Source of the DNA: an uncultured SAR86 cluster bacterium
GTDB lineage: Bacteria > Pseudomonadota > Gammaproteobacteria > Magnimaribacterales > D2472
Direction of reading: 5' to 3'
Assembly: GCA_905181645.1 (NCBI GenBank)
Contig: CAJIYN010000001.1
Span: 1-64,000 of the forward strand
Length of the DNA: 64,000 bases
Part shown: positions 7,716 to 24,582 of the stretch, piece by piece
Numbering within the stretch: position 1 is the stretch's first letter
Layout: every line of letters starts with the position of its first letter
Made by a program: the position numbers and the translations under genes
Notes under the pieces: generated by a model
Seen by the model: only the letters and a program-made list of their open reading frames with translations
Told to the model about the DNA's origin: nothing
The model's database searches: none

Positions 7716-10231
<2,516 letters not shown>

Positions 10232-10237
10232 TTTACG

Positions 10238-10286
10238 GCCTAAATAATTTATTAAAAAAGCTCAAAATTAGAGCTAGATTTAGGCT
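10238..10286 (-). terminator. Nested inverted repeat / probable terminator after pntB
   Basis: In the 82-nt gap between pntB and gyrA the minus strand has AGCTC-TAATTTT-GAGCT followed by six T (10254-10276), a short intrinsic-terminator shape for the pnt operon. It is nested inside a second 8-bp inverted repeat, GCCTAAAT (10238-10245) and ATTTAGGC (10278-10286 region), so the whole gap can fold as a longer cruciform. It also lies just upstream of the gyrA start and could affect gyrA expression. The inner stem is only 5 bp. Confidence 0.5.
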
Positions 10287-10313
10287 TTATTTTAACATAA
10301 AATAAGGTAGAAA

Positions 10314-11696
10314 TTAGTCTTTAAATTCAGATACTAGCCCACTAATTGATTCTTTAGCATCTCCAAAAAGCATTCTTGTATTTGATTTAAAAAATAGGGG
10401 ATTTTGAACTCCTGCAAAACCAGAAGACATTGATCTTTTAAGAACAAAAACCGTTTTAGCATTATGCACTTCTATAATAGGCATTCCATAAATCGGACTT
10501 CCCTCTTCTTCGGTAGCAGATGGATTAACAACGTCATTGGCACCAATAACTATAGCGACATCAACAACATCCATTGTTGGATTAACGTCATCAGGCTCAG
10601 CCAATACATCATAAGAGACGTTAGCTTCTGCTAATAATACATTCATATGACCTGGCATTCTTCCAGCAACCGGATGTATACCATATTTTACCTCAGTACC
10701 ATTACCCTCCCAATAACTCTCCAAGCTCTCTAACAACATGCTGAGCTTGAGCTACAGCCATTCCATAACCTGGAACAATTAAGACAGAACTAGCATTTTC
10801 AAGTATTAAATATGCATCAGATACAGAAATTGGATTAATTTCTCCCTGCTCTTCAGATGAACATGCTGGTTGATGAACTTGCATAACCAACAAATAGAAT
10901 ATTAGTAATTGATCTATTCATTGCCTTAGCCATAATAATAGTCAAAATTAAGCCACTTGCTCCGACTAAAGAACCAGCAACTATCAGCACATTATTAAGG
11001 AGAAGAAGTCCTGCGAAAAGCTGCAGCTATTCCTGAAAAAGAATTAAGCAAAGATATAACTACCGGCATATCTCCACCACCAATTGGTAAGACGAAACCT
11101 ATGCCACCAAGCAATACCAAAACCAACAACACAGTAAAAAATTCAAAAGTTGGAATCAAGAAAGGAGTTATAAATATTGAATATAGTAAAAAAGCTAAAG
11201 AGATATAAAAAATAGTAGTAAATATTTTAGTTATGATTGATGTTTTAGCTATATTAATCTTTTCAGAAAGTTTTCCGTATGCGATTAAACTTCCAGTAAA
11301 GGTAATTCCGCCTATTGCAAGGGTAAACATCACCAAAGCTGCTTGAAAAAAACTGTCTGGGATTGAGTTAAATTCAGACCAAGCAATCAAAAATGTAGCC
11401 AAACCGCCAAAGCCATTGAACAAGGCAACCATCTCAGGTATTGATGTCATTTTTACTTTAAGAGCAATAAAGGACCCGATGATGGCGCCTAGTAATATTC
11501 CAATAAATAAAACAATGGGATTAACTAATCCTATACAAGTAATACCCACAGCTATAAACATCGCAATTGCTGAAAGGAAATTACCCTTAACAGCTGTAGA
11601 TTCTTTACCTAGCATCTTTATACCAGTGATAAACAACACTGATGAAATTATGTAAATAATATTCTGAACAGCTGATATTTCACTAAAAAATTCCAT
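10314..11696 (-). CDS. pntB: NAD(P) transhydrogenase subunit beta (frameshifted)
   Basis: Membrane plus NADP-binding subunit of the proton-translocating transhydrogenase, which makes NADPH from NADH using the proton gradient. The N-terminal two thirds (10995-11696) is very hydrophobic with about eight membrane helices; [20 protein letters not shown] is a channel signature. The C-terminal NADP domain has [36 protein letters not shown] and [12 protein letters not shown]. Two or three indels between 10700 and 11000. The span is 461 codons, close to E. coli PntB. pntA2 ends 2 nt upstream. Confidence 0.95.
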
Positions 11697-18101: not shown

Positions 18102-19135
<1,034 letters not shown>

Positions 19136-19139
19136 TAGG

Positions 19140-19947
19140 TTGAAGGATTTAGGTACGTTATCTTTCTCAAAGGAAGTCGCTGAAACTCTTGGTCTTGAAT
19201 CAGCGATTATTCTAGAGCTATATAAAACAAATAAAATTTTTAACTCAAGGTCCATTGAGGATTTAATTGAATCTGTAAAAATTGAAGCACCTTTTCTTTC
19301 TAATGTTGCAATTGAAGAAAACCTGCATAAATTAAGAAGAGTTAAACTTATTGAATTTAAGTCTCAAAAGAGTAAAAAAAATTCTGCAAATAACTTTGAT
19401 TTAAAGATTCCAAATAAAAATAATACTGAATCAAAAACTAAAATATCAACCAACTGGATCCCTTCAAAAGAAACAGTAGAAGTTCTTGAATTAGGCGGCA
19501 TTTCAACAGATTTTGCAAAATCAAAACTTAAAGAGTTCAAAATATATTGGACAGAAAGAAATCAAGCAAGGGATAATTGGAACTTCTTATATAGATTATA
19601 TTAGAAGGGAGTGGGCTAAAGAAAAAAGCTCTAATAGAGGCCTGCCGTTCACATTAGACTCAAGCTGGACACCAAGTGAAGATGTTTTTGATATTTTAAA
19701 TCTCTCTCAGATTACAAAAGAATCAGCCTTAAATTACCTTAAGGAGTTTATAATTTATTGGGAAGAAAATGGGACAGCTCTAAAGTCATGGAATTCAAAA
19801 TTTATTGAGTACGTAAAAAGAAAAGAATTAGCTATAACAACGAAAAATGGCAAAGAAGATATTCGAAATAATGAACCTGGAAAATTCACGAAAGGTTTTA
19901 CAGAGAGGAAAAGTGACCAATCCTGGGCAAAAGAATTTAAATTCTGA
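19140..19947 (+). CDS. DnaT-like primosomal protein with two DnaT domains (one frameshift)
   Basis: Probable replication restart or helicase-loading protein. An N-terminal segment (about residues 1-90, LSFSKEVAETLGLESAIILE) looks like a winged helix of the DnaD/DnaT kind. Two C-terminal repeats follow, each starting WxPSxE (NWIPSKETVEVLELGGI and SWTPSEDVFDILNLSQI) and each with EFxIYWxExxxxxxxWN, the DnaT primosomal motif. The frame breaks near 19580. TTG at 19140 is chosen because AGGAGAGGAAG lies 6-16 nt upstream, within the end of aroG. E. coli DnaT has one such domain. Confidence 0.75.
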
Positions 19948-20497
19948 TAACTTGCAAGAGTATATAGAATCTATAGATGCATTGTTTTTAAAGCTTGAGC
20001 TTGCCTATCACTATCAATTTTATAAAGTTTTTGGGACTGATGAGAGGTTAAATGAAGGCAAGAAACTATGGGCAGTGAGCTTGAAAGATTTTTCATCTGA
20101 AATTATCAATAAAGCTTCTGAAGAAATTATTCATACACAACCCTATTTTCCAACTCTAACCGATATAGTAAAACTCTGCGAACAACTAAGAAAAAGTTCA
20201 TCATTGCCTAGTGCTGATGAGGCATTTATAGAAGCACGCAAATCATTTTCACCAAGAAAAAAATATAATTGGAGTCATCCAATTATTTACTTTGCTGGAA
20301 AGAAAACTGGTTGGAATTTTTTAAATGAAAAGGATGGAAGAGACATTTTTTATGAATTTAAAAAAAATTACAACAATCTTATTCATGCTGCAAACAATGG
20401 AAAAGTCTTTCAAATACCTAATGAAGAAGTCACTGAAAAGCTTCAACCTCTTGATCAAAAACTTTTTGAAAGCCTAAGAAAAAAATACAATATATAG
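19913..20497 (+). CDS. Lambda replication protein P-like protein
   Basis: 194 residues from GTG 19913, chosen because AGAGAGGAAAA precedes it; overlaps the DnaT-like gene by about 35 nt. FPTLTDIVKLCEQLRKSS, then LPSADEAFIEARKS and WSHPIIYFAGKKTGWNFLN, recall the replication protein P family (phage-type DnaB helicase loaders), where a PxxxEAFxEA region precedes a HPxxxxAxxxTG motif. No other phage genes are near, so a host helicase loader working with the neighbouring DnaT-like protein is the best guess. Function is inferred. Confidence 0.6.
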   Translation: MTNPGQKNLNSDNLQEYIESIDALFLKLELAYHYQFYKVFGTDERLNEGKKLWAVSLKDFSSEIINKASEEIIHTQPYFPTLTDIVKLCEQLRKSSSLPSADEAFIEARKSFSPRKKYNWSHPIIYFAGKKTGWNFLNEKDGRDIFYEFKKNYNNLIHAANNGKVFQIPNEEVTEKLQPLDQKLFESLRKKYNI

Positions 20498-20574: not shown

Positions 20575-21456
20575 ATGTCAAAAAATTTACGTATATCTTT
20601 ATATATACTTTTACCATTAACTTTCTGGATGCTGTCTGGTTTATTTGTTGAAGAAAAAGTGATTGAGGAGAATGAACCCTCAGGATTTGCAATGGTTGGT
20701 ATTATGCAAAGCCAAGCTGAATTTTATAATCCAGAAATTTTATTAAAAGCTACAGCTTTATCAGAGAGACGGGTAAATGTTCGTGCAAAAACGTCAGGAG
20801 AAGTTGTAAAAATTGGTGCGACACAGGGTCAATTCGTAGAAAAAGATTCAATATTATGTAGTTTAGGAGTGGTTGAATTAAATAGAACTGAGGTTAAGGC
20901 TCCGTTTTCTGGCTACCTAGAGCAAATTGTAAAACCAGGAAATTATCTAGAAAGAGGTCAAGTTTGTGCAACTATTATTCAGCTAAATCCTATTATTTTT
21001 ATTGCCGAAGTTCCTGAGATAAGTATTGCAAAAGTTAAGGTTGGTCAGAGTGTTGATATTGATCTAATAACAGGTCAAAAGGTTTCAGGTATTTTAAGTT
21101 TTGTTTCAAAAAGCGCCTCACCAGCTACAAAAACATTTAGGGTTGAGGTTGAAATACAAAACAAAGATGGATTAATTAAGGATGGTCTTACTGCTGATCT
21201 TATTATCAAGACGGATAAGGTAAAAGCGCACAAAATATCACCATCTATATTAATTCTTGATGATGACGGAAAGCTTGGGGTGAGAATAACTAATACAGAA
21301 AATATTGTTGAATTTTATGAAATAGAAATTGTTCAAGATTCTCCTGAAGGCCTCAGAGCAACTGGAATACCTGAAGGAGCAAATATTATTGTTCAAGGAC
21401 AAGGGTTTGTTGAAGAAGGTCAGTACGTAGAGACTACAAATGCAGGAGAATTATGA
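20575..21456 (+). CDS. RND efflux membrane fusion protein, lacking the coiled-coil hairpin
   Basis: Periplasmic adaptor linking an RND pump to an outer membrane channel. 293 residues with an N-terminal membrane anchor (about residues 6-22). The lipoyl halves are RVNVRAKTSGEVVKIGATQG and TEVKAPFSGYLEQIVKPGNY; beta-barrel strands follow (ISIAKVKVGQSVDIDL). Between the lipoyl halves only about ten residues remain where a 60-80 residue helical hairpin is expected. The reading frame is intact. Either a real minimal adaptor or an in-frame assembly deletion. The stop overlaps the pump gene (ATGA). Confidence 0.9.
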   Translation: MSKNLRISLYILLPLTFWMLSGLFVEEKVIEENEPSGFAMVGIMQSQAEFYNPEILLKATALSERRVNVRAKTSGEVVKIGATQGQFVEKDSILCSLGVVELNRTEVKAPFSGYLEQIVKPGNYLERGQVCATIIQLNPIIFIAEVPEISIAKVKVGQSVDIDLITGQKVSGILSFVSKSASPATKTFRVEVEIQNKDGLIKDGLTADLIIKTDKVKAHKISPSILILDDDGKLGVRITNTENIVEFYEIEIVQDSPEGLRATGIPEGANIIVQGQGFVEEGQYVETTNAGEL

Positions 21457-24400
21457 CAGGCATAATTGATTTTGCTTTATCCAAAGCAAAAACTACTTTA
21501 ATGATTGCTGTATTAATAATTGTAGCTGGGTCATATGCTCGTCAAAATATACCCATAGCTGCATCTCCCAATATTCAGCTTCCATTTGTAAGTGTTGGTG
21601 TTTTTTTAGATGGAGCATCCCCATCTGATGGCTCAAGATTAGTTGCTAAACCATTAGAAAACAGACTGAGAACGGTTCCAGGAGTAAAAACTATTAGAGC
21701 AACTAGTAGTCTATCCAACATAAGAATTTTTCTTGAATTTGAAGTTGGGTATGATATGGATAAGGCTTTAGTTGATACTAAGCAAGCTGTAGAAGAGGTT
21801 AAATTTAATTTACCTCAAGAAGCTGAAGATCCTCAGATTAATGAATATAGTAATGCTAATTTTCCTGTAATGAACCTTAGTGTAATTGGTGCAAGCTCAC
21901 TAAGACAAAAAGTGTTTTATGCAAGGGAGCTTAAAGATAGATTAGAAAAGATTGAGGAAGTCCTTGAAACAGAAGTCATAGGTTCTCCTGATGAAGTTCT
22001 TGAGGGTATTATTAATAAATCCAAAATGGAAACATATGGAATTACTCTCAGGCAGCTTTATACCGCAATTAGCAATAATAATGTAATTATTCCTGGAGGC
22101 TCACAAGATACTGGGCTTGGCAGTTTTATGATTGAAGTTCCAAGTGTCATTGAGACTGCTGAGGATGTTTATAGCATTCCAATTAAGGTAACAAAAGAAG
22201 CTGTTGTAACTCTTAGCGATATTGCTAGTATCAGAAGAACATTTAAAGATTTTAATTCATACGCAAGGGTGAATGGTGAAGATGCAGTTGCTATTGAGGT
22301 TATGCTCAGAGAAGGCGCGAATGCAATAGATGCAGCCAATAAAATTGCAATTGAATTAGACGAATTTAGAAAAATATTACCTGAGAATCTAACAATAGTT
22401 AAAACAAATGACGATACTGTTTGGGCTAACATGATGGTATCAGAATTAAATGGCAATATTATTTCTGCTGTTGTCTTGATCATGATTCTTGTGGTTGCAA
22501 GTATGGGATTTAGAGTTTCTATGTTGGTGGGTCTTTCTATACCATTTTGTTTTCTAATGACTTATCTAACCTTATTTCTCCTTGGGTATGAGGTAAATTT
22601 TCTAGTAATGATGGGATTATTGCTTGGAATGGGCATGTTAATTGATGGATCAATTGTAGTTACCGAGTATGCAGACAGAAAGATAAGTGAAGGTCTTTCA
22701 AGACTTGAAGCCTACAGACTTGCTTCAAAAAGAATGTTCACACCCGTTTTAGCCTCAACAGGAACCACTATAGCTGCGTTTATTCCTTTAATTTTTTGGC
22801 CAGGCTTTACAGGCCAATTTATGAGATACCTTCCTATAACAGTAAGTATAGTTCTTGCTTCTTCTTTGTTCTATTCTCTTGTTTTAATACCGGTGCTAGG
22901 CTCATATTTTGGTCAAAGCTCATCTACCTTAAAATTAGGTAAAGATAGCGATCAAACGGGTGAACCATTATTTGATAAGATAGCTGAATATTATGGAAAA
23001 TTAACTAAGATTTTTGTAAAGAATCCTGGTGAAACTATTATTCTTACTCTTGCGGTCTTATTTACTATCGTAACTACTTATAATTTTTATGGAAAAGGTA
23101 CTGTCTATTTTGCAATAGTTGATCCCGTAAAGGCAGAGATTACAGTTAGAGGAAGAGGTAATTTTTCTGCATTAGAGTCAAAACAAATAATCGAAGATGT
23201 TGAGGAAAGACTTCTACAGATTGATGAACTGCAAAGTGTTTTCTTAAGATCTGGATCACCTTGGTGGGAGCGTGGCGGAGATAAAATTGGAAGTGGTTAT
23301 GTTGAAGTAGTTGAGCCTTCTGAAAGAGATATAAGCGGTTTAGAGATAATGCAGCTTGTAACAAAAGTAACACAGGGAATACCAGGAATTATTGTTGAAG
23401 CCGAAGCTGATCTAGGAGGACCAAGTTTTGATTCCCCTATTGAGTTAAATATAACTGGTGACATTGAAACCGAAGTCGTTTCAGCTGCCTTAAATGATAG
23501 AGCAGTACATGAAGAATGATGTCATTGGTTTGGCTAATATTAGATCTACCCTTCCCTATTCGTTAATTGAGTGGAGGGTTGATGTTGATAAGCAAAAAGC
23601 TGCACAGCTTGGGGTCAGCATCTCTGATATAGGTGCCTTGGTTCAAATGCTTACTAATGGTTTTAAGGTCGGAGAATATAGGCCTGATGATTCAAAGGAC
23701 GAAATTGAAATTAGGGCAAGGTTTCCAAGCTCTGATAGAACCATTACTGGTATTAAAAATTTAAATGTAACAACTGCAAAAGGGTTAATTCCTGTTAGCT
23801 CATTTATAGATGTTGTCCCAAAAGAAAATAGGCAGACTGTAAGTAGAGAAAATGGTCAGTATTTTCAACAAATAGCTGCAGGCACCGTCAATGAATCTGA
23901 GGTAACTGCGAAAGTTAAGGAGCTTGATAATTGGCTTAAAAATAAAGATTTAGGAGCTGGAGTATCTTATGCATTCAGTGGAATGGCAGAAGAGACGGAA
24001 GATGTAAATCAATTTATGATTATTGCAGGAATTTCAGCTATTTTTATAATGATGATAATGCTGTTGACTCAATTTAATAGTTTTTATCAGTCATTTATTA
24101 TACTTTCTTCAGTAACAATCTCCTTTATAGGAGTACTTCTCGGTCTTTTAATTACAGGCAAACCATTTAGTACAACAATGACAGGTCTATCAATTATTAC
24201 ATTAGCCGGAATTGTTGTTAATAATAACATTGTCTTAATTGATACTTTTAATAAGCTTAAAGAGGAATCCCCTCATCTTGAAAAATCAATACATATCATT
24301 AACGCATGTAAGCAGAGGCTACGTCCAATACTGCTTACATCACTTACAACTATTTTTGGACTTCTACCGCTAGCAATGGGTTTAAGTCTTGATCTTATAG

Positions 24401-24582
24401 GCAGAGAATTAACGGTTGGAAGTCGAGTAGTAGATTGGTGGCAAAATCTGGCGTTATCAATTGTATTTGGACTAGGCTTTAGTACTTTTTTAACTCTGAT
24501 ATTTACTCCTGCGGCACTAGCATTCCCGTATAAAATTAGAGAAAAGTTTTATGAAAGATTTCCTGAAAAAGTCCAAGTCTAG
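21453..24582 (+). CDS. RND efflux pump, AcrB/HAE1-type (one frameshift)
   Basis: Inner-membrane proton-driven exporter of the hydrophobe/amphiphile efflux class. About 1043 residues after one indel at 23494-23519. N-terminal helix then IPIAASPNIQLPFVSVGV and GASPSDGSRLVAKPLENRL; TM4 has GMGMLIDGSIVVTEYADRK; TM10 has TLAGIVVNNNIVLIDTFNKL. In E. coli AcrB the equivalent TM4 residues are Asp407-Asp408 and TM10 has Lys940; here they are Asp-Gly and Asn, so the relay differs. Substrate unknown. No outer membrane factor gene is adjacent. Confidence 0.93.

Follow-up and report, generated by a model that had tools for sequence, protein, structure and literature searches.

The window, by which we mean the whole 64,000-nucleotide stretch analysed here, comes from a SAR86 cluster bacterium whose genome assembly (G000) is 1.33 Mb in size and 59.8% complete; SAR86 records are the nearest named hits, the best at 91%. 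Directly after aroG it carries two genes, the start of the second overlapping the frame end of the first, and these are followed by the gene of an RND adaptor protein (Table 1). We refer to the two products as DopC and DopE. A preliminary description of this DNA had claimed two DnaT domains, a following gene that resembles the phage helicase loader P, an overlap of both genes behind aroG and a lack of phage genes nearby, and these points are borne out. The profile search matched PF17948 twice, far above chance, and PF06992 once above its cut-off, and no phage-like ORF was seen among those between 15 and 26 kb, which were read by eye.

Table 1. Features of the dopC-dopE locus and its neighbours in the window
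Feature	Position	Strand	Evidence
aroG, upstream neighbour, in broken frames here	18102..19138	+	AroG also upstream in relatives
DopC-like part 1 (N-terminal winged-helix-like region and first DnaT domain)	19140..19604	+	PF17948, E=1.5e-12
DnaT domain 1	19440..19583	+	profile match
DopC-like part 2, other frame (second DnaT domain and C-terminal SWA-type motif)	19513..19947	+	PF17948, E=1.4e-17 (match within 19513-19944)
DnaT domain 2	19648..19827	+	profile match
DopE-like protein, lambda P homologue, 216 aa	19847..20497	+	PF06992, phrog_109, hhalign, structure match
DopE residues 38-109, G39P-like helical domain	19958..20173	+	1no1_A, Z 8.4, rmsd 1.9, 67 residues
DopE residues 119-192, second helical domain, WSHP..GW motif	20201..20422	+	9oa2_V, Z 6.5
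DopE C-terminal tail KLFESLRKKYNI, candidate DnaB-docking helix	20459..20494	+	aligns with lambda P C-terminus
RND adaptor (membrane fusion) gene, downstream neighbour	20575..21456	+	same neighbour in relatives

In the window DopC is divided between two overlapping ORFs because two bases are missing near 19587, as compared with three loci of the same family (L071, L072 and L074), and the deletion brings in a stop. In relatives DopC is a single frame, mostly of 250-380 aa; as regards one open frame, the preliminary description needs correction for the window. The second part ends in DQSWAKEFKF, as do other DopC proteins of the same family (f1). Since overlapping broken frames are common among the other genes of the window (aroG and the RND pump are examples; affected stretches are 8019-10751, 18102-19138 and 21453-24582), the split of DopC is probably a sequencing error. 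The breakage has the pattern expected of uncorrected sequence, and the reading frames of the window need to be taken with caution.

DopE is homologous with lambda P over nearly its full length. The window protein matches PF06992 with 26.1 bits (E=8.4e-6; gathering cut-off 26), the DopE of Pseudohongiella does so with 44.6 bits, and against PHROG 109, annotated as 'P-like helicase loader', the window protein reaches 1.2e-13. Comparison of a DopE profile (A2) with lambda P by hhalign gave a probability of 92 (E=5e-7, about 15% identity), with profile positions 40-222 lying on lambda P 37-228, that is, as far as the C-terminus. Similarly, residues 23-216 of the AlphaFold model of DopE (mean pLDDT 79.9) superpose on residues 27-223 of lambda P in the 2025 DnaB complex (9oa1_Z; Z 10.1, rmsd 7.2, 185 residues), and the second domain taken alone corresponds to lambda P 119-199 (9oa2_V). 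A sequence search of solved structures with DopE returned no lambda P match; the predicted model did match. In the second helical domain, which has the WSHP..GW motif, the residues W142, H144, P145 and W156 are invariant. The Pfam loader matches of DopE are of the lambda P and G39P types only and include no AAA+ ATPase domain, and PF05258, the DciA domain, was found neither in the Pfam scan of the pair nor in genome G000. Among phages, P proteins from Pseudomonas phages come closest, and phage matches are only about 20-28% identical.

For DopC, only PF17948 exceeds the cut-off in the Pfam scan. The number of DnaT copies is two in families f1 and f4 and three in f2, in most of f3 and in Cellvibrionales-type loci; the double DnaT domain is nothing unusual. 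The AlphaFold model of an intact f1 DopC (L072) has a winged-helix-like N-terminus, a common fold for which 1ku9 is the best match (Z 7.6), together with two DnaT domains that match DnaT at Z 8.8. Its fold matches the crystal structure of DnaT with ssDNA (4ou6), and ssDNA binding is predicted from the model. A lambda O profile found no match in DopC, PHROG replication initiation proteins matched it only weakly (best 5.6e-4), and a tblastn search of phages with the second DopC part returned nothing. By eye, the C-terminus of lambda O (TNTDWIYGVDL; L155:87-983) resembles DopC ends such as LTDRSWAADL and DHEWAVNF, and this TDW/SWA-like end may represent a shared P-binding motif.

The inventory of loaders was based on 61 genomes of the SAR86 order (37 of f1 and eight each of f2, f3 and f4), a wider order set of 203 genomes and a sample of 204 genomes of the class. 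The spread of the pair had been named as a point to check, and its position, flanked by aroG and the RND adaptor gene, proved to be conserved across the order, in four families. DnaT was detected in 58 of the 61 genomes, and PriA above its family cut-off and DnaB_C in 59 each. Two genomes, G009 and G038, have no PriA match above cut-off, the latter being 97% complete and in one contig. DciA was found in none of the 61 (the search control was positive in 7 of 14). The presence of dnaC had likewise been named as a check, and no DnaC-like gene was found in these genomes with PF01695, which covers the AAA+ domain of DnaC. Matches above cut-off occurred only in frames of 305-518 aa and in one of 808 aa, sizes of other AAA+ proteins, and a DnaC-like gene in SAR86 was rejected on these grounds; the frames were read as DnaA-, Lon- and ClpX-like by length alone, and the sub-threshold matches were seen in part.

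In the class sample, DciA is present in 165 of 204 genomes, P in 11 and DnaT in six. All five genomes with at least two DnaT domains (G000, G038, G039, G063 and G101) are without DciA (p=2e-4, a value that ignores kinship, three of the five being SAR86). Three of the P-bearing genomes (G096, G132 and G136) also have DciA; by eye their P genes look phage-type, because they adjoin another replication-type frame and not a DnaT protein. Two further genomes of one family, G147 and G253 (L162 and L163), have no DciA match and encode a divergent P homologue of 263 aa, possibly another domesticated P, with a frame of about 340 aa next to it. The DopC/DopE pair, usually with three DnaT domains, also lies in loci titled Cellvibrionales, Pseudohongiella and Spongiibacteraceae.

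Given these results, the earlier proposal of a domesticated helicase-loading module that replaces DnaC has to be divided. The phage-type module is well supported by homology, synteny and the absence of DciA; the loader displaced in SAR86 was most likely DciA, the loader of most of the class, and not DnaC. We consider it probable that the pair is a chromosomal, phage-derived module for loading the replicative helicase, of the DopC/DopE kind, standing in place of DciA. The names DopC and DopE were reportedly given by Brezellec in 2017 to proteins of Cellvibrionales, from genomes without dciA and dnaC/dnaI, and DopE is said to derive from lambda P and DopC from lambda O. We take the SAR86 pair to be this published arrangement. 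An earlier paper (Brezellec 2016; PMC5109545) did not settle which loader the Cellvibrionales use, and according to another source DciA or DopE is what bacteria lacking AAA+ loaders generally rely on (PMC13326638). A literature search, with most subscription papers outside its scope, returned nothing that combines SAR86 and 'helicase loader'.

DopE is distributed strictly by family. It is present in all genomes of f1 (37/37) and f3 (8/8) and in none of f2 (0/8) or f4 (0/8); order-wide it occurs in 126 of the 203 genomes, 90 of them f1 and 36 f3, and in no other family. Of the 77 genomes without a DopE match, the 20 listed all belong to f1 or f3 and are 56-85% complete. Genome incompleteness bears on single absences and not on the clean family pattern. 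In f2 and f4 the RND adaptor gene lies directly after DopC, and the DopC proteins themselves end in a tail of the DopE type (for example NFKKLKEKHQI and NLREKYKI) in 13 of the 13 that were read, eight from f2 and five from the eight f4 genomes. The same tail was found in none of 49 DopC proteins from f1, f3 and Cellvibrionales-type loci, a set from which the two DopC fragments of the window were excluded.

The tails were scored with a position matrix built from 37 DopE tails (those of f1 minus genus g7, plus Cellvibrionales-type). The DopC ends of f2 and f4 score between 5.4 and 18.6 and 452 unrelated C-termini at most 5.1, the tail being short and K-rich and the weakest f2 tail lying barely above the best background score. 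The DopC ends of f1, f3 and Cellvibrionales-type loci reach at most -2.6 (49 proteins, 34 distinct ends). Five of the eight distinct DopE tails of f3 fall below zero, four of these five ending one residue earlier. Within lambda P, the matrix scores highest (3.7) on the protein's own C-terminal AKIAEIKAKFGL. Mean pairwise identity is 0.70 over the last eight residues of the tail, and 0.24 (f2) and 0.33 (f4) over the adjoining linker. Over all pairs of f2 genes, the last seven codons show 59 synonymous versus 49 non-synonymous codon differences, and codons -32 to -13 show 58 versus 423; the DopC tail of f2 is under purifying selection. A donation of the f2 and f4 tails by the DopE of the sister family was considered and is unsupported, as the f2 tails are closer to the DopE tails of f1 (25.2) than to those of the sister family f3 (20.2).

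Two further observations concern these families. All eight f2 loci (L001, L002, L004 and L008-L012) have a conserved inverted repeat, GTGTTATA ... TATAACAC, at most 60 bases past the DopC stop and ahead of the RND adaptor gene; it may be where a repressor of the pump binds. In f4, assembly gaps were considered as the cause for the three genomes without DopC, and this proved true for G054 only, where the contig starts inside the adaptor gene. In G045, which is 93% complete and in one contig, and in G060, no DopC, DopE or neighbouring adaptor gene was found, and the contig ends of G045 do not account for the missing DopC. If the loss in these two genomes is real, DopC would not always be needed.

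Trees of DnaB (35 of the 59 matched genomes and E. coli; a second set of 24 rows) and of AroG (35 of 38 rows, three short ones being dropped) both divide the order into f2 plus f3 versus f1 plus f4. The AU test rejects f2 plus f4 as one group with either gene (DnaB p=0.0093, AroG p=0.0082). Because this grouping is rejected and the Cellvibrionales-type relatives have DopE, DopE was lost at least twice, and its replacement by the DopC tail took place in two independent events.

Reduced forms of DopE are also found. In genus g7 of f1 the protein has 151 aa and is without the WSHP half, and the tail is kept as LRKKHQI or LRKKHKI (five genomes read); order-wide, all eight P matches of g7 break off around profile position 114-128, and two more genomes of the genus gave no match. 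Beyond SAR86, the DopE of G063 (170 aa) lacks the second half but has a tail-like end, and in G203 a single frame of 397 aa begins like DopC, continues with the first half of P and closes in a tail-like end. In the G203 frame (L164:697-1887) the DopC-like N-terminus appears to be doubled and there are no DnaT domains; DciA was not found in that genome. The P homologue of G101, a genome of the class sample with no DciA match, has the WSHP half and no recognisable tail, and a universal tail in DopE was rejected on this account. The loss of dopE in f2 and f4 together with the DopE-like tail on DopC looks to be the new part of these findings: none of the literature titles and abstract starts searched describes how DopE disappeared or how its tail moved to DopC, Brezellec 2017 and most papers behind subscription lying outside that scope.

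Other explanations for the pair were weighed against a loading module. DopC could act like DnaT, together with PriA, in reloading DnaB at broken forks, with some other factor loading the helicase at oriC, and it is true that the DnaT domain belongs to a restart protein and that PriA is above cut-off in nearly all order genomes. No such other factor was found, however, as far as DciA and DnaC-like genes are concerned, the absence of DciA from genomes with tandem DnaT domains is not predicted by a pure restart role, and the pair persists in G038, where the match to PriA falls far short of the cut-off. We regard a restart module as improbable. Far less credible still is a functionless O/P pair left in the chromosome by a prophage. 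P proteins of Pseudomonas phages do head the phage matches, but their identity is low, no phage genes were seen alongside, the pair keeps its position behind aroG and ahead of the RND adaptor gene in four families, and the tail is under purifying selection.

The DopC tail of f2 and f4 might on the other hand be a convergent short linear motif, perhaps for another partner, instead of a transferred DopE end. A tail of only about 12 residues could arise in this way, and the f2 tails are not nearest to the DopE tails of the sister family; yet the tail occurs solely where DopE is missing, and it sits where dopE lies in relatives. Convergence therefore appears unlikely to us, though it deserves to be taken seriously, and even pure convergence would point to the same binding site.

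Returning to a loading module of the DopC/DopE kind, we infer that the pair loads the helicase, that it acts at oriC and that the tail contacts DnaB. DopC, with its winged helix and tandem DnaT domains, would mark the single strands that DnaA opens or that PriA lays bare at a fork, and DopE would grip DnaB through its second helical domain and C-terminal helix and deliver it to the marked site. The tail may be the element that matters most, being kept in three SAR86 lineages in which DopE shrank or vanished. It is read as a putative DnaB-docking helix because the end of lambda P, like DnaC and DciA, uses the linker-helix/docking-helix region. In the lambda P-DnaB study (Chase 2018; PMC6391071), lambda P 103-233 suffices for DnaB binding, a helical domain lies between the C-terminal domains of DnaB and a lasso sets a further helix on the linker helix; the visible C-terminal segment adjoins that linker helix, and a crosslink connects DnaB 373 with lambda P 229, the sequence assignment of lambda P being termed tentative by its authors. 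The linker-helix/docking-helix site of DnaB is described as common to DnaC and DciA in another paper (PMC9912922). E. coli DnaT, according to a further source, forms filaments on lagging-strand ssDNA and is a proposed recruiter of DnaB/DnaC (PMC13377028). A tail-bearing DopC would combine such a DnaT-type ssDNA role with DnaB docking, so that in f2 and f4 both tasks, the binding of ssDNA and the docking of DnaB through the tail, would fall to DopC alone.

On the side of DnaB, f2 and most f4 sequences retain the tryptophan of the docking helix (E. coli 294), which is replaced in f1 and f3 (L198-L219). At E. coli 299, near a position said to separate DciA from DnaC helicases, most of these sequences have a residue other than Ser or Gly.

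From these sequence comparisons we propose that a loader can be worn down until only a helicase-docking peptide, borne by an ssDNA-binding protein, is left. We would give about even chances to the specific reading that helicase loading in f2 and f4 is carried out by a single protein, a chain of DnaT domains that has kept only the DnaB-docking peptide of lambda P, with the ring-opening body dispensable, the reduction having occurred at least twice independently and g7 standing half-way. Whether the minimum task of a helicase loader includes ring breaking, or is just to deliver the helicase to ssDNA, is an open question. In this respect the SAR86 lineages form a natural series, from a full DopE through half a DopE with its tail to a state in which DopE is gone and the ssDNA-binding partner carries the tail; should the tail by itself be enough to load DnaB, lambda P-type loaders would not need their ring-breaking body for loading. 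Also, an abundant marine group without DciA or DnaC gains a concrete candidate for a replication-initiation factor.

Among known systems, the SAR86 pair resembles the published DopC/DopE in having adjacent genes, a lambda P homologue with a partner, and genomes without DciA and DnaC/I, and it differs in the two or three DnaT domains of DopC and, in f2 and f4, in a missing dopE and a DopE-like tail on DopC. With lambda P itself, DopE shares near full-length homology, two helical domains and a C-terminal helix, whereas it is chromosomal, about 15% identical, and partnered by a multi-DnaT protein rather than the origin-binding lambda O. DopC has the ssDNA-binding domain fold of E. coli DnaT, but in two to three tandem copies, with a winged-helix N-terminus and a lambda P-like partner instead of DnaC. 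The likeness to G39P of phage SPP1 lies in the fold of the first helical domain of DopE and is confined to that domain, the sequence match being just E=0.16. DopE differs from DnaC/DnaI in having no AAA+ ATPase domain. DciA, finally, fills the loader role in most of the class, but it shows no visible sequence relation to the pair and is absent from SAR86.
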